Below, one piece after another: positions 11,359 to 23,158 of a stretch of DNA of 25,995 bases. Position 1 is the first letter of the stretch. Each line of letters begins with the position of its first letter. A program made the position numbers and the translations under genes. The stretch is from positions 1-25,995 of the IMG/VR virus record IMGVR_UViG_3300035670_009289. One strand, written 5' to 3'. The DNA is from a virus. The notes under the pieces are model-generated. The model was not told where the DNA came from. It saw only the letters and a program-made list of their open reading frames with translations, and ran no database searches.

Positions 11359-11934
11359 TTAATTTACAGAATTTTCTTCGCTCACCTGAGCGCCGTTGCG
11401 CCGAGCCAGACGTTCAAGCGCACTAGCCTTTGAAGACTCCAAAGCGTCTTCGCGGGCATTACGTTCACGAATGGACAGCTCGCCCTTCATCTCCTCACGC
11501 GAGATCAGACCCTGTTGCACGAGCATATCGCGCCGATGCCGGAACGCTTCGACAGCGGTCTTGCCGATAGACTCGATCCGCTTTGCCTCGTTTAGCGCCT
11601 TCTTGATCGAAATGACCCGCGGATGACGAGCCACCTTAGCGGCAATAGCAGACTCGGTGATCTTCTCGCCTACAGCCGCTAGATCATTGCGGATGATCTG
11701 CTGCACGGCAGCCTCGGTGTTCTCCACCAGCATCTTGACCACATCGGTCTGCTTGGCAGACTCGGCTGCCAGAATGCCGTAGTGAGAGAAAAGAGACGCC
11801 TGCTGCATCATGGCGTCGGTCAGATTGTTGGGTGAGTAGGCGAGATCCGCCTTCAACTGCTTGGCGTCAATGAAGTCGCGGACCTGGTAGACGGTCTGCT
11901 CCTTCCCGACATCGCCGGTCGTGGGTGTCGTCAT
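11359..11934 (-). CDS. helical phage protein of unknown function
   Basis: A 191-residue protein predicted helical almost throughout. It includes LTDAMMQQASLFSHYG at about 38-53 and RRDMLVQQGLISREE near the C-terminus, and ends in a polar tail. I do not recognise a named family. Its position between the polymerase and ssb genes suggests a replication or recombination accessory protein, such as a mediator, but that is context only. ATG at 11934 with AAGGA upstream. It has its own promoter at 11962-11987. Confidence 0.7.
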   Translation of the reverse strand: MTTPTTGDVGKEQTVYQVRDFIDAKQLKADLAYSPNNLTDAMMQQASLFSHYGILAAESAKQTDVVKMLVENTEAAVQQIIRNDLAAVGEKITESAIAAKVARHPRVISIKKALNEAKRIESIGKTAVEAFRHRRDMLVQQGLISREEMKGELSIRERNAREDALESSKASALERLARRNGAQVSEENSVN

Positions 11935-11993: not shown

Positions 11994-14900
11994 TCACGAC
12001 AGGCAATCAGCGACAGCCGCGAACACCTCGTTCATGTTCTGCTGCTTGTCGGGATCGTGGTAGATCTCGCCGGGGCTGAACCCGATCACGATGTTTGCAT
12101 CGTAATCCTTCGAGTAGATCACCTTGCCGGCCTGCTCTGACGCCTTGCCCTTGAAGTCGGGGAAGAAGTGTCGAACAGTGGTTGAGCCAAGCAGCACAAT
12201 AACAGGCGGCTTCAACAGCTCGATTTCTCGCGCAAGGTAAGGCTCATAGATCTTGATCTCTTCCGGCGTCACCTGCTTGCCGCGCTTCGGACGCTTGATG
12301 AGTGCCGTCCAGTAGGCATTTGCCCGATCCAGGGACGCATTCTCGATCGCCTCAACGACAGCGTTGTTGGACATGGAGAAGCCCATGACGCCGCCCGTAT
12401 CCTCCTCGTTGCCAGGCGCATCGGAAATGATCATGAAGTCCGCGTTCTTGCCGAAGAACGGCTTGACCGGATAGCCATCGGCAGTCGTCGCCTTCGGGCC
12501 ATGTGCTGCGCGGTATTCATCCACCAGCTCGCCAAGGGCAGCTTTTGTGTCCTTATCCCTGTTCAGTTCGTGCTCGATCGGCACATGTGCGGCGATCAAG
12601 CCTGGCAATAGCGCGATCTGATCCTTGATACGCGAGGGATCATTCGCCGGAACCTGTCCAGGTTCGATACGTGAGAAGGCACCGACGAGATCGAGCGCCT
12701 CTTGAACGCGCTTGTTACAGACGCGCTTTTCAACGCGGGAGAGAAAATCGTTCTTATCGAGAAACGGTCCCGCCTTTCGCGCCTCAAGAATTGCCGCCGT
12801 CGCCTTCTCACTCAGACCCTTGATGCGCTGAAGCGGCATAACCAGTCGAATAGGCGTTGCCATTTCAAAGCGATCGGTCGAGATATTGATATCGGGCATC
12901 GAGACTTCGATACCAAGCGACTTGGCATCGCGGATGATTCCCGTCAGCTTCTCTTCCCTTTGAACAGTGAGAGCGGCTGCGTAAAACTCTGCAGGATAGT
13001 AGGTCTTCAGATACATCGACTGATAGGAGATCAGCGTGTATTCAACCGAGTGCGACTTGTTGAAGCCGTATCCAGCGAAGCCTTCGATCTTGTCAAACAG
13101 CGCGCCGGCCCAATCCTCGGTGCAGCCGATCGTGGCGACACAGCCGTCGCAGAACTTCTTGCGCTCCTTCTTCATCTCCTCCGGCAGCTTCTTACCCATG
13201 ATCTTACGCAGCTTGTCAGCAGCGGCACCGGAATAGCCGGCAATCACCTGGGAGATCTTCATGACCTGTTCCTGATAGACGATGACACCGAAGGTCTCTT
13301 CGAGCACCGGCTCCATCAGTGGATGGTCGTATTCGATATCCTCGTTGCCCTGCTTGCGCAGATAGAACGAGTCCATCATTCCCGATTCAATAGGACCAGG
13401 GCGATAAAGCGCGGTGCAGGCGGTGATGTCTTCGAACGTAATCACGCCCGTTGAGCCGAGCTCCTTCAAGAGCCGGCGCATACCTCCGGACTCGAACTGA
13501 AAGATTGCGGTCGTGTTCGCCTTGGCAAAGTTTGCCAGCACCTTCTCGTCGTCCAGCGGAATCCGGTTAAGATCAAGCCGCTTTCCAGTGTTCTCCCTGA
13601 TGTAGTCGAGGGTGAGCGTCATATGGTCGAGCGTGTTCAAGCCGAGCACGTCCATCTTGACCAGACCCTGATCCTCAACGATGCGCTTGTCCCAGCAGAC
13701 AACATTGCCTTCTTTGCGCCGCTCCACGACTGCGCGGTCTACGATATCGACACCAGCGACAATGACACCGCCTGCGTGCTGACCAAAGTTGCGGATCGTG
13801 CCTTCCAGGCGCTCCATCATCGGATAGTGCGTCGGGTAGTTGTTGGCGAAGTCGTCGATCTCCTTTACCTGCTTGCGAGCCTCGGGGAGGGGAACGTTCT
13901 GCCCGTGCAGCTTTGGAACGAACTTGGAGACGGAGAAGTCCTTTTCGGGAATGAGCGTCACGCGGCCGACGTCACGGATCGCAGACGCCGAGCCGAGCGT
14001 TCCATAATTGTTGACGCCCGCAACGCGCTCAGCGCCATATTTCTTGGTCAGGTATTCGAAGACTTCGTGCCGGCGCTCGGACATGAAATCGAGATCGGCG
14101 TCAGGCAAGTCGATACGTTCGGGGTTGATGAAGCGCTCAAACAGAAGACCGAACCGGATTGGATCGCATTCGGTAATGCCCATCAGGTAAGCAACGAGGG
14201 ATCCGCCCACGGAGCCGCGACCAGGTCCAACCATGATGCCCGACTTCTTGGCAAACTGAACCACGTCCTGCACCAGCAGGAAGTAGCCCGAGAAGTTCAG
14301 GCGCTTCAGCGTTTCAAGTTCGTAGGCAAGACGGGGCTTATAGACCTCAAGCAGCTCTTTCGGATCAGGCTGATGACCGAAGATTGGCGCGTCGAAGCGT
14401 TCCTTCCAGCCCTTCTTGCACTCCTCGACCACAGCCGCAAACTCGTTCGGCGCCATAATTGGAAGGGAGACGTCGGCCTTCTTCCACTCATATTCGACCA
14501 GATTGACGAGTTCGACGGTGTTCATAAGACCGCTCTTGAACTGCGCAGCGGTGAAGCCAGGATCGTTGCCGCGCTTCACCAGATGAGCAACAGCCTTCTT
14601 CATTTCGCCTATCAGCTCGCCAGAGCCCATGACGTGCATGTCACGATTAAACCGGGACTTAAACCAGCCGTCCGTGATCTTGTTGTTCTCGGCTATCGCC
14701 GACATGATCTCCTGAGTGTCAGCCTCGCCCTGACCATAGAACGCCGGCCGCACTACGATCGGCTTCAATCCGTTCTCGTTGATCTGCTTGAGTGCCAGAT
14801 CGTTTAGGCGTCCGTAGTAGGGCGTATTGATCGGGATGAGAGGCGCATAAACGTTCTCGCAAAGAATGGTCAGTCCTTTGATAAGCTTCGTGTGCTCCGA

Positions 14901-15359
14901 ATGCTCCAGGATCGAATGCGCGTCACCAAGCACGATTGCGAGGTCGCCTCGGTCGATGGCGCGCAGCTCGTTGGTAAGATCACTGAAGCCGAGCTTGGCC
15001 TCGTAGTAGAAGCGATCATCCGAATTGGCGAGAGTCAGGAGACGGAAGATCGCCTTCATACCGGCTTCCTTCAGCGCGTAGACGGTGAGGAAGTAAGATC
15101 GCGGCATGTCCTTTTTCTTCTCGCCGTCACCGGGACGCCAGGTCGGGTTATCAGTCAAGCGAAGACGGCAGCCGATGACAGGCTTCAGACCTTCAGCCTT
15201 TGCCTTGTTGGTGAAGTCAATCATAGAGGTAACGGACATTGTATCCGTCATCGCGACAGCTTTTGCTCCGGCTTCGACGGCGTTCTTGATCAGACGCTTG
15301 GTCGTGAGGATGCTTTCGCCGACTGAGAAATCAGTCCGCGCTGCAAGGATCGAGTGCAT
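11994..15359 (-). CDS. dnaE: DNA polymerase III alpha subunit (DnaE-type) fused to a uracil-DNA-glycosylase-like domain
   Basis: A 1121-residue C-family replicative polymerase. The PHP-like N-terminus is degenerate: the family HxH and TDH motifs read LAARTDFS and MTDTMSV, so its metal site is probably lost. The palm has GPGRGSVGGS and the catalytic PDADLDF near 415-421. The fingers and helix-hairpin-helix regions continue to about 900. In place of the usual OB-fold and tau-binding end, residues 972-1121 form a family-4-like UDG domain: SDAPGNEED at 979-987 and VIVLLGST near 1053-1060. The UDG domain lacks Fe-S cysteines, and the usual HPS-type motif reads FSPGEIYH. ATG at 15359 with AGGG upstream. 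It follows the 77-residue gene by 6 nt. Confidence 0.9.
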   Translation of the reverse strand: MHSILAARTDFSVGESILTTKRLIKNAVEAGAKAVAMTDTMSVTSMIDFTNKAKAEGLKPVIGCRLRLTDNPTWRPGDGEKKKDMPRSYFLTVYALKEAGMKAIFRLLTLANSDDRFYYEAKLGFSDLTNELRAIDRGDLAIVLGDAHSILEHSEHTKLIKGLTILCENVYAPLIPINTPYYGRLNDLALKQINENGLKPIVVRPAFYGQGEADTQEIMSAIAENNKITDGWFKSRFNRDMHVMGSGELIGEMKKAVAHLVKRGNDPGFTAAQFKSGLMNTVELVNLVEYEWKKADVSLPIMAPNEFAAVVEECKKGWKERFDAPIFGHQPDPKELLEVYKPRLAYELETLKRLNFSGYFLLVQDVVQFAKKSGIMVGPGRGSVGGSLVAYLMGITECDPIRFGLLFERFINPERIDLPDADLDFMSERRHEVFEYLTKKYGAERVAGVNNYGTLGSASAIRDVGRVTLIPEKDFSVSKFVPKLHGQNVPLPEARKQVKEIDDFANNYPTHYPMMERLEGTIRNFGQHAGGVIVAGVDIVDRAVVERRKEGNVVCWDKRIVEDQGLVKMDVLGLNTLDHMTLTLDYIRENTGKRLDLNRIPLDDEKVLANFAKANTTAIFQFESGGMRRLLKELGSTGVITFEDITACTALYRPGPIESGMMDSFYLRKQGNEDIEYDHPLMEPVLEETFGVIVYQEQVMKISQVIAGYSGAAADKLRKIMGKKLPEEMKKERKKFCDGCVATIGCTEDWAGALFDKIEGFAGYGFNKSHSVEYTLISYQSMYLKTYYPAEFYAAALTVQREEKLTGIIRDAKSLGIEVSMPDINISTDRFEMATPIRLVMPLQRIKGLSEKATAAILEARKAGPFLDKNDFLSRVEKRVCNKRVQEALDLVGAFSRIEPGQVPANDPSRIKDQIALLPGLIAAHVPIEHELNRDKDTKAALGELVDEYRAAHGPKATTADGYPVKPFFGKNADFMIISDAPGNEEDTGGVMGFSMSNNAVVEAIENASLDRANAYWTALIKRPKRGKQVTPEEIKIYEPYLAREIELLKPPVIVLLGSTTVRHFFPDFKGKASEQAGKVIYSKDYDANIVIGFSPGEIYHDPDKQQNMNEVFAAVADCLS

Positions 15360-16157: not shown

Positions 16158-16790
16158 CTAATTCGAAATGAGCCGCCCGATCTGGCTGACTTCATCCATG
16201 ATCTGCTTCCGCTCGACGCGACTTGCGCCCATGAAGTCAAAGATGATGGCGCTGGTGACACGCTTCGGCACCGCGTAGCAGGCGCCGATTTCCTTGGCAT
16301 AGGCCGCTTTGGCCTGAAGATCGTTCATCCGCTCGATAAGCTCCGGCGGGTTGTCTCGCAGAAAAGTCAGGAACATCTGCGAGCGGCTGGAAAGCCGGGT
16401 CATGGCGTATGCAAAGCAGTCTTCACGCTGAAACGCCTCGTCGTGGCGAATGCCTGTATCGCCAATGATATCGCCCAGAGTGCCGTCGGAGGAATCGTCG
16501 CCGATCTGTAGATCGAGGGATGCGGCGACGGTCTCGGCGTGATTGCGCTCGAAGTTCTTCTCAACCCAACGGTTGATGTGATTGCGGAGCCCGGTGTAGA
16601 GGAACGTCTTGAATGAGGCACCGCCATTATCGTCGTAGGCGTCACAAGCCAGGCACCAGCCGACCCACAATTCGCTTTCGACATCTTCGAGGAGAACGCT
16701 CCTGGCCCCAAGCGCATGAACGCGCTTGAGAACCTTGTATGCGAAAGCCTTGATCTGGCTGCGATCAAGTTTTGGATCACGCTTGATCAT
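16158..16790 (-). CDS. phage RNA polymerase sigma factor
   Basis: A 210-residue protein whose residues 10-80 fit sigma-70 region 2: basic helix, LLEDVESELWVGWCLACDAY, then F-KTFLYTGLRNHINRW. This part binds the core enzyme and melts the -10 element. The remainder is helical but no standard region 4 helix-turn-helix stands out, similar to short phage sigmas such as T4 gp55 (layout comparison). It may direct the host polymerase to the repeated GCTATAW promoters of this window. ATG at 16790 overlaps the cobS-like stop (ATGA). Confidence 0.75.
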   Translation of the reverse strand: MIKRDPKLDRSQIKAFAYKVLKRVHALGARSVLLEDVESELWVGWCLACDAYDDNGGASFKTFLYTGLRNHINRWVEKNFERNHAETVAASLDLQIGDDSSDGTLGDIIGDTGIRHDEAFQREDCFAYAMTRLSSRSQMFLTFLRDNPPELIERMNDLQAKAAYAKEIGACYAVPKRVTSAIIFDFMGASRVERKQIMDEVSQIGRLISN

Positions 16791-18094
16791 GCGCCAAACA
16801 CCCGCTGCATGTATTCCTGGACGACCTTCTTATCGACGCGAGAAAGGCGGTTAGCGAAGGCAAGCTCCATTCCGAGCGTCCAGTTGCCACCGTAGGCGAT
16901 ACCAAGTGATGCGCAGCGGATAAGCTCGCGTGGCGACACGGTCATGGTGATCTTGCCGTCCCGGAAGAGCTTGCGCACTTCGTTCGCCATCTTGACGATC
17001 TTGTTGGCAGAGGCGCTATCGATGCCGGTCTTCGACTGCAGAATTGCGGTCTCGATCTTGGCATCCATGTATTCGACCTCTTCGGTGATGGCGAAGCGCG
17101 AATAGTTGGCAGCATTCTGAACGAGCGTGCCTTGATAGAGACCGGTCTCGTCACCGACACCGTTTGTGTTGCCGGTCGCAACGAAACGGAAGTTTGGATG
17201 CGGAATGATCTTGCGGAAGTGCGGTGGCGCATCCTTGATCAGAAGCGGCTGACCTTCGAGAACCGGCTGATAAACCGCAGTGACGGACGGCATCGCAAAG
17301 TCGTATTCGTCGGCGCAATAGACCCAGCCGTTGATCATAGCCATCGGCAACGGTCCAAGCTGGAACTCGGTGACTGACTGCTGCTTCATCACCTTGTGCT
17401 TGACGCCGGAGCTGTCAATCTCCTCGACTTCGACAGGCTTGGAGCGAACCGTCCACTGACCAAGAACGTCCGATTCCTGCATGTTGATCGTGTGCTGGAC
17501 GCGAATGAAGGGACGACGAGTGCGCGCGGCTGCCTGCTGCAAGATCGTTGTCTTGCCAGTGCCGTGAAAGCCCCAGAGATATGTCGGCATGTTCAGCTCA
17601 AAGCCGATGATGACCTTCTTCAAGAGATCGATATTGAAGACGTAGGACTTGTCGACATCGGCCAGGAAGTCGGACGAGATCGCGTCGTGGCCTTCGAGGA
17701 TCTTGATCGGGATCGGTTGACCCTTTGCAGACAAGGCCGCAGACGAAGTTCCAAGCTCGAACAACTCGTGAAACAGAGCCTGCTTGACGACAAGCTTGCT
17801 TGTGGAGCCAACGCCCGCTTCCATCAGCATGTTTGCGTGGATCGAGGATGACTGCTCAGAAGGAGCCGGCGCCTGTGCTTCGCGCTCCGCCTTCTTCTTG
17901 GCGATAATATCGAGCGCGGTCTGCGAGAAGAGCGGCTCGCCGGGATACTCGGCCTGATACTTCTCAATCGACCAGTCGGGGTGATTGTTCTTGATGTGCG
18001 CCTGGATCGAGTGAACGCGAACGTTGTCGATATGGCACAAAATCTTATCGTCAGGCGCAGCGACAGCTACGCCAGCTTCAGCAGCCTGGCTCAT
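16787..18094 (-). CDS. cobS: CobS-like MoxR-family AAA+ ATPase
   Basis: A 435-residue protein. The N-terminal CobS domain is at 20-60 (HSIQAHIKNNHPDWSIEKY then YPGEPLFS). The AAA+ core has Walker A GFHGTGKTT at 175-183, Walker B WVYCADEYD at 257-265 and a sensor-1 VATGNTNG. In cobalamin synthesis CobS is the ATPase of the CobNST cobaltochelatase; phage copies usually travel with CobT but without CobN. The role is therefore unclear: helping the host chelatase, or MoxR/VWA remodelling of another target. ATG 18094 with GAGG 6 nt upstream is preferred over an upstream frame extension that runs through the promoter. CobT lies just upstream. Confidence 0.88.
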   Translation of the reverse strand: MSQAAEAGVAVAAPDDKILCHIDNVRVHSIQAHIKNNHPDWSIEKYQAEYPGEPLFSQTALDIIAKKKAEREAQAPAPSEQSSSIHANMLMEAGVGSTSKLVVKQALFHELFELGTSSAALSAKGQPIPIKILEGHDAISSDFLADVDKSYVFNIDLLKKVIIGFELNMPTYLWGFHGTGKTTILQQAAARTRRPFIRVQHTINMQESDVLGQWTVRSKPVEVEEIDSSGVKHKVMKQQSVTEFQLGPLPMAMINGWVYCADEYDFAMPSVTAVYQPVLEGQPLLIKDAPPHFRKIIPHPNFRFVATGNTNGVGDETGLYQGTLVQNAANYSRFAITEEVEYMDAKIETAILQSKTGIDSASANKIVKMANEVRKLFRDGKITMTVSPRELIRCASLGIAYGGNWTLGMELAFANRLSRVDKKVVQEYMQRVFGA

Positions 18095-18135
18095 GATTTC
18101 CCTCTTGTGTGATGAAGCGCTTTCGCGTTGCGCTA

Positions 18136-18170
18136 TAAGTAACTGATTACTTATTTTCGAGTTGGGACGC
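18136..18170 (-). promoter_or_regulatory. operator and partial promoter upstream of cobS
   Basis: The plus-strand sequence TAAGTAACTGATTACTTA (18136-18153) differs by one base from the 18-nt operator core at 11311-11328. GCGTCCC (minus strand, 18164-18170) sits at the usual place, but the GCTATAW -10 is replaced by operator sequence. The promoter is weaker or different. Confidence 0.5.
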
Positions 18171-18205
18171 AAGCGGGAAAACTAAGCTCCCGCTTACTTT
18201 TTTTT
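18171..18205 (+). terminator. hairpin with T8 tract (intrinsic-terminator shape on plus strand)
   Basis: Arms AAGCGGGA (18171-18178) and TCCCGCTT (18188-18195), 9-nt loop, followed by AC and eight T (18198-18205). Read on the plus strand it is a textbook intrinsic terminator, but all genes here are on the minus strand, where the T tract becomes an A tract before the hairpin. It may stop antisense transcription, or act as a structure at the end of the cobT mRNA. Confidence 0.5.
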
Positions 18206-20511
18206 CAAACGCCGATAAGGATCTTCTTGATTTCGGTCATCACCTGGCCGGGAAGATCCTCGGCCTTACGCAGAACCGTCGACTTCGGGTAATACTTGTT
18301 GACGGAATCGTCCATGATCCCGATCCCGATACATTCGATACCGATCTTGCCAAGCTGCTTGACGACACCAGCAAGGTGTGGACCGGACTTGTGACCGCCC
18401 GCTGGCTGGCCGTCAGAGAGAACCAGCATCACCTTGCGCTTTTCCATCCGTTTCAACAGACGCTCGGCTGCGTATTCCAGGGACTCGCCGTCGATGTTGC
18501 CGTTCAGTCCAGGCTGAGCGCGTTTCATGAAGGCGAAACGCGCTTTCACGGTCGCGGTCAGGCGCTCATCGAAGGTCTTGTAGATTGGCATCACAATCGG
18601 CGTGGTCCGATCCCAACTAATACGCGCCTTCTTCGCCTCTTCGGCCATTGCATCGCGCAGCGACTGCGGCATGTAGCCATAGCCACCCGTCGTAAAGCCG
18701 ATCACCTCGTGCGCGATCTTGACGCGATCAAGCGTGGAGCAGAGCGCGTATCCGGCAGTCATCGCAAGGTTCATCTTGTGACCACCCATCGAGCCGGAGT
18801 TGTCGATCACGACAGACACAGCCGTATCCTTGGAGACATGCTCCTGCTTTTGCGTGAAGACGCGCGGATCGCCGCCTGGCACACGAAACAGCGACGGCGC
18901 ATGAAGCTTTCCGGTGCGATGACCAGGAGTTCGAATGACGTGGGACTGAGACGCCATGATGCGCTCAATATCCTTTTGCATCTTCGAGGTCATGAGCCGC
19001 GTCTCGTCTTCCATTTCCGGAACCCACTTGGAGTTCATATTGTCCGGAAGCTGGACGGGCTTGATTTCGTCAAGCTCGCGGGTGAACACCAGATACTGCT
19101 TCGGATCCATTGCCGCGACTGCTGCATCAGAGATCTTGATGGCGATCTGCGATGACATGTCGACCTCTTCGAAGTCGCCATCTTCATAATCGAACATGGA
19201 CTTTGCGCCACCGTTACCGACGCCTCCTCCACCGCCTTGATGCTCTTCGTCTGATCCTTCGCCTACTTCGCCCTCGCCACCGCCTTCATCACCTGCAGTG
19301 ATGACGGACGAGACCTCGTTGCGGCGACCACCCTCGCCATCGTCATCGTCTTCGTCGGAGCTATCGCTTGAGACGTCTTCGCCATCGTCATTCTCATCGC
19401 CGTCTTCAGCGCCTGACGACACAGTCTCGTCTTCCTCAGCGTCCGGGTCTTTATCCGTAACATCTTCGCCGTCTACGGTGCTGTCTTCATCCGGTTCATC
19501 TTCGGAAGCTTCACCATCGACGCCGTCCTCCGCAGTCTCAGGCTCATCATCGACCTCCTCTGCAGGCTCTTCTTCCTTCTTCTTGTCCTTGCCCTTTGAC
19601 TTCTTGTCGTCAGCCTTTGAGCCGCTACCGCTGCCTTCGCCCTCGGCTTCGTCTTCACCCTTGCTCTCTTCACCCTTGCCGCTATCACCAGGATCCTTAT
19701 CCTTGTGATCGCGCTCGCCGTCGCCATCGCCCTCGCCAGCCTCCTTTTCGGGCTTGTCCTGAGACTTGCCCTTCTGGCTGATCTTGACTTCCGGCTCAGG
19801 TGCGGCAGGCGGGGCAGGCGGGGCAGGCGGCAGGATCTTGCCCATGAGGATGTCATGGACCTCCTCTGTCACAGCGAGCGTTTCCTTCGTGGTCGTGGCC
19901 TTCTTGAGAAGATCGAGCGTTGCAGGCTTCATGGTCTTCAGAAGCTCTTCGACCATTGGATGCTTCCAGTAGCCGCGCTTATCCATCCATTCCTGCATTT
20001 CCTCATGCCCGCCCAGAGCACGCATCATCGGAACGAGAATGTAGCGAAACTGCTCCTTGGGATCCTTTACGCCCTTCAGCGCGACATCGGTGATCTTTTC
20101 GAGAAACCACTTGCGCGTAACCGACAAATTGCGCGCGGCACCAGGAAAAGTCTTTACCTGCTCGCGCTCGATCATCACGTCTTCGATGATGTTATGGGTC
20201 TGCATGAAAGCCCGGCGCTTGGGATCACGCAGATCCCTCTCGCTCATCCCGCCCTTTCCACCATAGTAGTTCCAGTCGGTGTGCAAGACATGCGCAACTT
20301 CGTGATCAACGAAGCCTGAAATGGCTGCGATGAACTCAGGCTGCGCATTGTCGGGAATATTGGGAATGTTGACCAAGATTGGCTGCTTGGTCTTAACGTC
20401 GGTCTTTACATATGCCTGCGAACCGCGCTGCGTCACTGCCAAACCCTTGCCTGACAGAAGAGGAACGAGCTTCGTAATCACCTCGCGCAATTCGATGATG
20501 TCGCGGTTCAT
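18205..20511 (-). CDS. cobT: CobT-like VWA-domain protein with HExxH motif
   Basis: A 768-residue protein. The N-terminal third has HEVAHVLHTD at 70-79 and IIEDVMIERE near 108-117, a zincin-like HExxH with a downstream Glu. A very acidic, repetitive Asp/Glu/Ser/Gly region lies at about 225-435. The C-terminal VWA domain has the MIDAS motif DNSGSMGG near 570 and LVLSDGQPAGG further on. This is the layout of CobT-type VWA partners of CobS ATPases. Whether the HExxH is a working protease is unknown. ATG at 20511 with GGAG 9 nt upstream, behind an operator at 20531-20548. The gene is longer than bacterial cobT (about 630 residues), mainly through the acidic region. Confidence 0.87.
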   Translation of the reverse strand: MNRDIIELREVITKLVPLLSGKGLAVTQRGSQAYVKTDVKTKQPILVNIPNIPDNAQPEFIAAISGFVDHEVAHVLHTDWNYYGGKGGMSERDLRDPKRRAFMQTHNIIEDVMIEREQVKTFPGAARNLSVTRKWFLEKITDVALKGVKDPKEQFRYILVPMMRALGGHEEMQEWMDKRGYWKHPMVEELLKTMKPATLDLLKKATTTKETLAVTEEVHDILMGKILPPAPPAPPAAPEPEVKISQKGKSQDKPEKEAGEGDGDGERDHKDKDPGDSGKGEESKGEDEAEGEGSGSGSKADDKKSKGKDKKKEEEPAEEVDDEPETAEDGVDGEASEDEPDEDSTVDGEDVTDKDPDAEEDETVSSGAEDGDENDDGEDVSSDSSDEDDDDGEGGRRNEVSSVITAGDEGGGEGEVGEGSDEEHQGGGGGVGNGGAKSMFDYEDGDFEEVDMSSQIAIKISDAAVAAMDPKQYLVFTRELDEIKPVQLPDNMNSKWVPEMEDETRLMTSKMQKDIERIMASQSHVIRTPGHRTGKLHAPSLFRVPGGDPRVFTQKQEHVSKDTAVSVVIDNSGSMGGHKMNLAMTAGYALCSTLDRVKIAHEVIGFTTGGYGYMPQSLRDAMAEEAKKARISWDRTTPIVMPIYKTFDERLTATVKARFAFMKRAQPGLNGNIDGESLEYAAERLLKRMEKRKVMLVLSDGQPAGGHKSGPHLAGVVKQLGKIGIECIGIGIMDDSVNKYYPKSTVLRKAEDLPGQVMTEIKKILIGV

Positions 20512-22045: not shown

Positions 22046-23158
22046 ATGAGAAGCGCGCAGTCTTCCGGCTGGCGTGCTCTAAAGCCGAACAAACCGTCGG
22101 CGGCAGAGCCTGATACAGCGGATAAGCAAGTCCTCTATGAGGCAGCCAGGGCAGCAGCCCAGGTCTTGAAACTACCATCGTCTTGCCGGTTCGTGCTGGA
22201 TCAGCTTGTCGGCGTCTACGGTGGCGAGCTGATTGAAAGCCGGATGCTTGTCTGGCCGTCTAACGAATTCCTTGTTGATCGCACAGGAATTCCGGAGCGC
22301 TCCGTTCGCTACGCTGTGTCTCGCCTCATCAGTGAAGGAGTTATCGCAGCGAAAGATTCACCCAATGGCAAGCGTTATGCGCAACGCGGGCCAAACGGGA
22401 AGATCGTAAAGGCGTATGGTTTCGACCTGTCTCCCCTGCTTGCGATGCTACCTGAGCTTCGCGCTCGACTACAGGTCATCAAAGACGCCGAGCGCGAGCG
22501 CCTGGCTGTATTTGATGATCTCACCATTCATCGCAGAGCAGCCCAGGAAGCTCTCAGAACGCTTGCCGAAGTCTATCCTGACATCGACATAGCCGATCTC
22601 GGTTCGCGCGCCCTTGAGCTTGCACGAGTCACGCCGCGTAGATCCGCAAGGGGATCAGCCGACCATGCCCGCGATGCCTGGAAGGCAATCAGGATTGAAG
22701 CAGAAGCCAGGTATTTTGCCGCCTCTGCCGGCAATTCCTGCCGTCACAAAGAGAACAACAAATATGACCCTGATAGATCTTGTAACAACGGCTTTGAAGA
22801 TGTTCAGGCGGAAACGCCGAGACCCGCGGCAACCGTAGAAGACGTGGTAAGGGCGTGCCCGGACGCTATGGAGTTTATCGGGTATGTGCGCAACGACAGG
22901 GAGTTTATTGGCGCCGTCAGTCGGGTCCGCGGCATGTTTGGCGTGTCGCCGTCGGCCTGGGAGGAGGCGGTGCGTGAAATCGGCCCGCTTGGCGCGTCTG
23001 TGACGCTGACTTACGTGGTGCAGCTACAGCAATCGCCCGCGCCCGGATCGGAGACGATCAAGAACGCGGGCGGCTATTTCAGGGCTCTGGTCCGGCTTGT
23101 GAAAGCGGGTCAGTTTGATCTGACAAAGGAGATCAGTCGGTTACTTCTAAGAAGATAA
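22046..23158 (+). CDS. repC: RepC-type plasmid replication initiator
   Basis: A 370-residue protein on the plus strand. The N-terminal winged-helix region (45-130) has the RepC hallmarks LVWPSN, RTGIPERSVRYAVSRL, DSPNGKRYAQRG and AYGFDLSPL. The C-terminal part (about 270-365) has the GVSPSAWEEA, then GGYFRALVRL and GQF pattern. RepC initiates replication of alphaproteobacterial repABC and repC-only plasmids, whose origin lies inside repC; here 22740-22800 is the most AT-rich part of the gene. ATG 22046 with GAGG upstream. No repA or repB precedes it, so it would be a repC-only replicon. Slightly shorter than typical RepC (about 400). Its 3' end overlaps the convergent gene by 26 nt. Confidence 0.85.
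   Translation: MRSAQSSGWRALKPNKPSAAEPDTADKQVLYEAARAAAQVLKLPSSCRFVLDQLVGVYGGELIESRMLVWPSNEFLVDRTGIPERSVRYAVSRLISEGVIAAKDSPNGKRYAQRGPNGKIVKAYGFDLSPLLAMLPELRARLQVIKDAERERLAVFDDLTIHRRAAQEALRTLAEVYPDIDIADLGSRALELARVTPRRSARGSADHARDAWKAIRIEAEARYFAASAGNSCRHKENNKYDPDRSCNNGFEDVQAETPRPAATVEDVVRACPDAMEFIGYVRNDREFIGAVSRVRGMFGVSPSAWEEAVREIGPLGASVTLTYVVQLQQSPAPGSETIKNAGGYFRALVRLVKAGQFDLTKEISRLLLRR

Follow-up and report, generated by a model that had tools for sequence, protein, structure and literature searches.

A C-family DNA polymerase ending in a uracil-DNA glycosylase (UDG) domain has been known since 2014, when DnaEX, an additional polymerase in certain strains of Yersinia pestis and Salmonella enterica, was described with a UDG domain at its C terminus (Timinskas et al., PMC3919608). 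Its PHP-Pol3-(HhH)2 arrangement is followed by a PF03167 domain that replaces the OB fold and the C-terminal domain (CTD), as in the DnaE described here; in the main text as available to us, the architecture receives one sentence, the word "phage" is absent and loss of catalytic residues is not discussed. The DNA polymerase of Rhizobium phage RHEph10 (NC_034248) shares the same full-length architecture at 62.6% identity, and its record carries the note "uracil-DNA glycosylase-like", i.e., a domain label alone, without a function. SPO1-type family-A polymerases (SPO1 gp31; phiLo, 9qhs) also place a UDG-family domain on a phage replicase, although the polymerase family is unrelated and the UDG domain lies at the opposite (N-terminal) end. 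The vaccinia UDG, D4, works with a family-B polymerase. It acts as a polymerase processivity factor, i.e., a UDG fold serving as a polymerase accessory, but according to the accessible part of the source it differs in being a separate, active enzyme of a eukaryotic virus, bridged by A20 (PMC10253040). Literature searches turned up no work on what the DnaE-UDG domain does, and none on clade-wide loss of the catalytic set or on Fe-S relics.

The DNA analysed here is a viral record of 25,995 bases (the window), with dnaE on its minus strand. The gene is a single open frame of 1121 codons for amino acids, with no internal stops, and its principal features are as follows.

11994..15359, minus strand: dnaE, C-family DNA polymerase III alpha-like replicase of 1121 aa with a UDG-like C terminus (Pfam, NCBIfam, AlphaFold2 model)
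14991..15338, minus strand: PHP domain match, residues 8-123 (Pfam PF02811, 58.0 bits)
13134..14429, minus strand: polymerase core, palm/thumb 311-573 and fingers 576-742 (PF07733, 250 bits; PF17657, 191.6 bits)
12663..12914, minus strand: helix-hairpin-helix (HhH) region, residues 816-899 (PF14579, 66.9 bits)
12597..12620, minus strand: candidate beta-clamp-binding motif, residues 914-921, QIALLPGL (alignment with the family consensus QxEL(L/I/M)PGL)
11997..12557, minus strand: UDG-like domain, residues 935-1121, predicted to replace the OB fold and tau-binding CTD (profiles and superposition of the AlphaFold2 model)
12399..12425, minus strand: altered motif 1, residues 979-987, SDAPGNEED (family 4, GE[AG]PG..ED), with D980 for Glu
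12285..12314, minus strand: altered motif 3, residues 1016-1025, YWTALIKRPK, with A1019 for the uracil-binding Asn; Y1016, T1018 and K1022 are invariant
12066..12080, minus strand: altered motif 2, residues 1094-1098, FSPGE, with S1095 for the His of HP[AS]

The Pfam matches run in the order PHP, DNA_pol3_alpha, DNA_pol3_finger, HHH_6 and UDG, which is the DnaEX-UDG architecture (PHP-Pol3-HhH-UDG without OB and CTD), and the core is that of a C-family enzyme (PF07733/PF17657) rather than the family-A polymerase domain of the SPO1 type. Three acidic residues, which we take to be the catalytic ones (D420, D422 and D570), are invariant across 49 polymerase sequences. With NCBIfam, the best DnaE models stop at about residue 900, and the family-4 UDG models start at residue 971, with scores below their own cut-offs.

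The C-terminal region matched the Pfam UDG model (PF03167) at residues 969-1108 with 50.8 bits (cut-off 24.3, E = 2.4e-13), placing it in the UDG superfamily by both gathering score and fold. It did not reach the levels set for active family-4 enzymes, scoring 63.7 bits with TIGR00758 (cut-off 125.3) and 56.5 bits with NF040953 (cut-off 250). A sequence-profile comparison matched the domain to the family-4 structure 4zbx with E = 1e-17. A full-length AlphaFold2 model, built from 49 sequences (the window and 48 of 55 candidates), had a mean pLDDT of 89.3 and a pTM of 0.76, the position of the UDG domain with respect to the polymerase being a prediction only; it superposed on 5lew with Z = 43.1, and its residues 935-1121 on Thermotoga UDG 1vk2 with Z = 22.0 (rmsd 2.6, 182 residues). 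When the domain was modelled alone from 68 sequences (the window and 67 of 73 candidates), pLDDT rose to 96.3 and pTM to 0.92, and the model superposed on 4zbx with Z = 22.5 (rmsd 2.5, 179 residues) and on UdgX with Z = 20-22. In fold and motif order the domain therefore resembles both family 4 (UDGa; 4zbx, 1ui0, 1vk2) and UdgX (6ajo), with Z values of 20-22 over about 180 residues, and on these models the C terminus of DnaE is predicted to be a family-4 UDG fold at the site where OB and tau-binding domains would otherwise be. A first-pass annotation made from the sequence alone had proposed just this replacement, quoting two motifs that do exist (SDAPGNEED, residues 979-987, and VIVLLGST, residues 1053-1060), and the profile search and structure prediction that it suggested both returned the UDG fold. 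Its estimate of the extent, i.e., the last 150 residues, was too short: the domain spans residues from about 935 to 1121 (12557-11997), because an N-terminal helix likewise superposes on the family-4 structures.

It was also suggested at that stage that other phages be searched for the same fusion. Among the matches listed, full-length proteins were found in three Rhizobium phages (86.5-87.6% identity), seven further Rhizobium phage records (62-63%), Stenotrophomonas phages (43-44%), Pseudomonas phages (Nickievirus and kin, 42-43%) and SSU5-type phages (36-39%), so that the architecture, beyond what was described for DnaEX, can be traced across all four groups. DnaE matches occurred in 1259 phage records; in the 60 of them that were listed, the first 30 rows extend past query residue 1100 and the next 30 end at 894-934. 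Among the listed records, therefore, the fusion belongs to a single branch of the phage DnaEs. Scanning with a profile gave matches in 170 viral contigs (80 retained) and at six loci in bacterial genomes. Three of these six (L104, L105 and L107) lie on contigs of 109-118 kb, i.e., the size of the whole phage. The bacterial copies described as DnaEX-UDG in Yersinia and Salmonella are, we infer, resident SSU5-type phage-plasmids. Two phage DnaEs without a UDG domain (L029 and L030) entered one alignment only. The UDG part shares the reading frame of the polymerase in all 24 long records, although a UDG match in all 24 is circular, because the records were selected for encoding the domain; each has exactly one DnaE, and none a second UDG match. 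A frameshift or misassembly of two genes was ruled out by the one intact frame and by the same-frame fusion in these 24 records, and the occurrence of the fusion in Rhizobium, Pseudomonas, Stenotrophomonas and SSU5-type phages also shows that it is not an artefact.

We aligned 86 distinct C termini, after excluding identical sequences and C termini with fewer than 150 aa following the profile match, with three sequences of the UDG family, taken from bacterial genomes in which the phage polymerase is also encoded. The motif-1 Glu was replaced by Asp in 86/86 (D980 in the window), and the stacking Phe was kept in four (Gly993 in the window). The uracil-contacting Asn of motif 3 was found in none, Ala, Gly, Ser or Thr occurring instead (Ala1019 in the window), nor was the motif-2 His, which was replaced by Asn in 48, Ser in 27 (Ser1095 in the window), Ala in eight, Thr in two and Gly in one. 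By comparison, all of the 32 family-4/UdgX controls keep all three motifs, although they serve as a yardstick rather than an independent sample because they were picked by the family-4 model. The window protein thus has none of the four residues of an active family-4 enzyme (Glu, Phe, Asn, His). It also has no Cys at any of the four Fe-S positions of family 4, although two host family-4 controls (L134 and L135) themselves lack some of these. Relics of the cluster were seen, in that 4/86 C termini have a CxxC (L020, L027, L097 and L102) and 3/86 have the fourth Cys; they sit in deep-branching phages such as nickie. The R-loop that carries the cross-linking His of UdgX behind motif 3 is absent as well, there being no insertion between K1025 and Q1029, where a UdgX-like control (L139) has one. 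Compared with UDGa and UdgX, therefore, the domain is fused to a polymerase and lacks the cysteines, the catalytic and uracil-contacting residues and the R-loop. The first-pass annotation had already noted the missing Fe-S cysteines and HPS motif; the alignment bears this out, and the motif-1 Glu, the Asn and the Phe are lost besides.

In UdgX, uracil is contacted by Asn91, Phe65 and His178, and in the portion of the study available to us the N91A, F65A and H178A mutations each abolished activity, with F65A additionally unfolding the protein (PMC10776899). Because the contact residues are lost and their Ala equivalents in UdgX are inactive, catalysis of the known type and base recognition have, judging from the sequences, very probably gone from the domain. 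Could a changed residue set, i.e., Asp980 with Asn or Ser at position 1095, still support an active glycosylase? An acidic residue is invariant at position 980, and Asn or Ser is what most often replaces the His, but the inactive UdgX mutants and the missing cysteines of the window protein speak against it, and excision on the replicase would create abasic sites at the fork. We consider such activity highly improbable and reject it on the residues, a judgement made from sequence rather than from an assay.

The loss of the uracil contacts bears equally on the proposal, made in the first-pass annotation, that the domain is a uracil reader. Archaeal family-B polymerases have a uracil pocket and provide a model for read-ahead reading, in which the domain would check incoming template bases for uracil or a modification and stall or tune the polymerase. 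Its position adjoining the polymerase would suit this role. A solved phage family-A polymerase with a similar domain (9qhs, Z = 15.1) bears the title "phiLo family-A DNA polymerase with modified template", taking the entry by its title, and phages that carry genes for a hydroxymethylase or dCMP deaminase likewise have family-A polymerases with UDG-like domains. Set against these points, Asn and His are absent from all 86 C termini and the stacking Phe from 82, as they are from the window (Ala1019, Ser1095 and Gly993). Moreover, 20 of 24 long records encode a dUTPase, so that these phages probably prevent uracil from entering their DNA and uracil-containing phage DNA is unlikely, while PF00303 (the thymidylate synthase/hydroxymethylase family) was found in only seven of the 24. 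The complete genome of a close relative, RHph_X66, has both a FAD-dependent thymidylate synthase and a dUTPase annotated. A reader of this kind therefore seems improbable to us, and glycosylase and uracil-reader roles are both unlikely for this domain.

A similar loss was apparent in the family-A polymerases. In 12 of their UDG domains, read by eye, the uracil-contacting Asn was kept in one, the motif-1 position was Glu in two and Asp in seven, and the His of the HP motif was kept in eight. Judged by these residues, loss of uracil recognition seems to recur in UDG domains tethered to polymerases. When two family-A UDG domains were used to scan viral_contigs, no relatives were found. In a tree of 48 DnaE-UDG representatives, 12 family-A domains and 22 of the 32 controls, all 48 DnaE-linked domains fell on one side of a branch with an SH-aLRT support of 98; this single clade is consistent with one acquisition and a later loss of the Fe-S cluster. 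With respect to a common origin of the DnaE-linked and family-A-linked domains, the tree has long branches and weak forks. On the sequence evidence, the domain is a decayed family-4 enzyme, whose deep branches retain the Fe-S cysteine relics. In Vibrio phage MAR10 (L180), the gene for a family-A polymerase with a UDG-like N terminus adjoins an annotated phage beta clamp, unlike in the DnaE-UDG phages.

Despite these losses, D980, Y1016, T1018, K1022, E1045, P1051, G1058 and G1078 are invariant in 86/86 C termini, and K1025 and D1087 are kept in 84. In six comparisons of the window with relatives, dN/dS for the UDG domain ranged from 0.044 to 0.182, near the range for the polymerase core (0.023 to 0.178); for the PHP domain it was 0.117 to 0.281, the UDG domain being lower in four of the six. 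Because these values are low and close to those of the core, the UDG domain is under strong constraint, i.e., purifying selection. Loss of the catalytic residues would also be expected of a vestigial leftover or a misassembled fusion, but with no relaxation of selection, with invariant columns and with the fusion present both in complete genomes of named phages and in 80 viral contigs, we regard this as the least probable explanation of all. Folding or contact with another protein could account for the invariant residues just as well. The UdgX equivalent of K1022, K94, is structural and needed for folding, according to the accessible part of the UdgX study (PMC10776899).

Where the conserved residues lie also bears on a possible docking function, in which the UDG fold would stay off the DNA and tether the polymerase to some component of the phage or host replisome (helicase, SSB, primase or clamp loader) in lieu of the tau-binding CTD. 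The domain does occupy the position of that CTD, conserved E1045, P1051, F1065, G1078 and D1087 lie outside the ancestral catalytic set, relatives carry their own DnaB-like helicase, primase and SSB, and the window carries a gp32-like protein. However, several of the most conserved positions fall on the ancestral active-site motifs (D980, Y1016-K1025 and F1094-P1096), which form the DNA-binding face in glycosylases. We therefore hold docking to be possible but doubtful, although more probable than reading or catalysis.

A beta-clamp-binding motif, QL[S/D]LF, is placed after the HhH region in C-family polymerases in the part of the survey available to us (PMC3919608). In the phage proteins the consensus after the HhH region is R-x-x-D-Q-x-E-L-(L/I/M)-P-G-L; in 84 rows Q was present in 77, E in 75 (D in six more), L917 in 80, L/I/M918 in all 84, P in 77 and L921 in 80. 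This clamp-like QxEL(L/I/M)P lies at the expected site (residues 914-919) but lacks the usual Phe, and in the window its third position is Ala (QIALL); it resembles a beta-clamp-binding motif and is a candidate for one, from which binding may be supposed. A bacterial beta clamp (domain 3) was found in none of the 24 long records, the control being positive in 11/14 genomes; the T4-type clamp PF02916 was also found in none of the 24, although the controls equally gave no match. Because the clamp-like motif is conserved and no clamp gene was found in the 24 records, use of the host beta clamp by the phage polymerase appears likelier than clamp independence. Of the "clamp-independent DNA-binding module" offered in the first-pass annotation as an alternative to the reader, the first half is hence doubtful, while a DNA-binding module is plausible.

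The domain is, in our view, most likely a non-catalytic accessory used together with the host clamp, and it probably binds DNA. The fusion, the fold and its descent, the loss of catalytic and uracil-contacting residues, the purifying selection and the lack of a beta-clamp match in 24 long records are results of computation, from which we infer DNA binding, host-clamp use and a role in processivity. In this proposal a family-4 UDG would have been joined once to a phage DnaE, behind the HhH region, displacing the OB fold and the tau-binding domain, and would then have shed its Fe-S cluster, uracil pocket and catalytic residues to become a non-enzymatic accessory. The ancestral DNA-gripping face of the glycosylase may hold the template or new duplex beside the polymerase, i.e., the job of an OB fold, and this grip would help to keep the polymerase processive and the fork stable; the host beta clamp would be recruited by the conserved QxEL(L/I/M)P. 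We give this reading as a whole a probability of about 0.5. A broader version is more tentative, i.e., that a dead glycosylase acts as a covalent DNA-gripping processivity module throughout a phage lineage, in parallel with D4, and that tethering of UDG domains to both C- and A-family polymerases accompanies loss of uracil recognition. If the domain does grip DNA, a replicase can do without an OB fold and a tau-binding tail, and phages, like poxviruses, have drawn UDG folds into replication; otherwise it remains a clear example of a repair enzyme that became a structural component, with Fe-S relics in its deep branches. Since isolated phages of this lineage that grow on laboratory hosts exist, the role of polymerase-tethered UDG folds is directly testable.

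Several other observations were made at these loci. In five relatives (L012, L023, L038, L077 and L101) dnaE is split at a point corresponding to window residues ~742-751, with a gap of ~280-940 bases; the N-terminal piece ends in a tail of ~40-50 aa, and the C-terminal piece opens with a short M-x-K-I-like stretch. An open reading frame matching HNH_3 lies between the pieces in four of the five (two above the Pfam cut-off and two below), L038 having no long open reading frame there. No group I or II intron or other credible RNA family was found at the split loci, where one sub-threshold snoRNA-like match is attributable to chance. A homing endonuclease appears to have left the gene in pieces here; nrdA of phage Aeh1 is a parallel case.

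Around dnaE in the window is a replication module with genes for gp32-like SSB, 5'-3' exonuclease, RecA-like, sigma-70 region 2 and DNA ligase-like proteins. Directly downstream of dnaE is a gene for a 191-aa protein (11359-11934, minus strand) with no Pfam matches; RHph_X66 has a neighbour of similar size, and in BUCTxx99 the gene downstream of the polymerase is labelled AAA ATPase. On the strand opposite the replication genes, the window encodes a RepC-type plasmid replication protein (22046-23158, plus strand; RP-C, 128.7 bits), which suggests that it derives from a phage-plasmid; RHph_X66 carries a RepC-type protein too. Finally, a gene pair at 16787-18172 and 18205-20511 (minus strand) is annotated as CobS/CobT cobaltochelatase in relatives, and a pair so annotated lies near dnaE in both Rhizobium and Pseudomonas phages; we presume that neither is a cobalamin enzyme and that the pair consists of an AAA ATPase of the MoxR type and a VWA protein.
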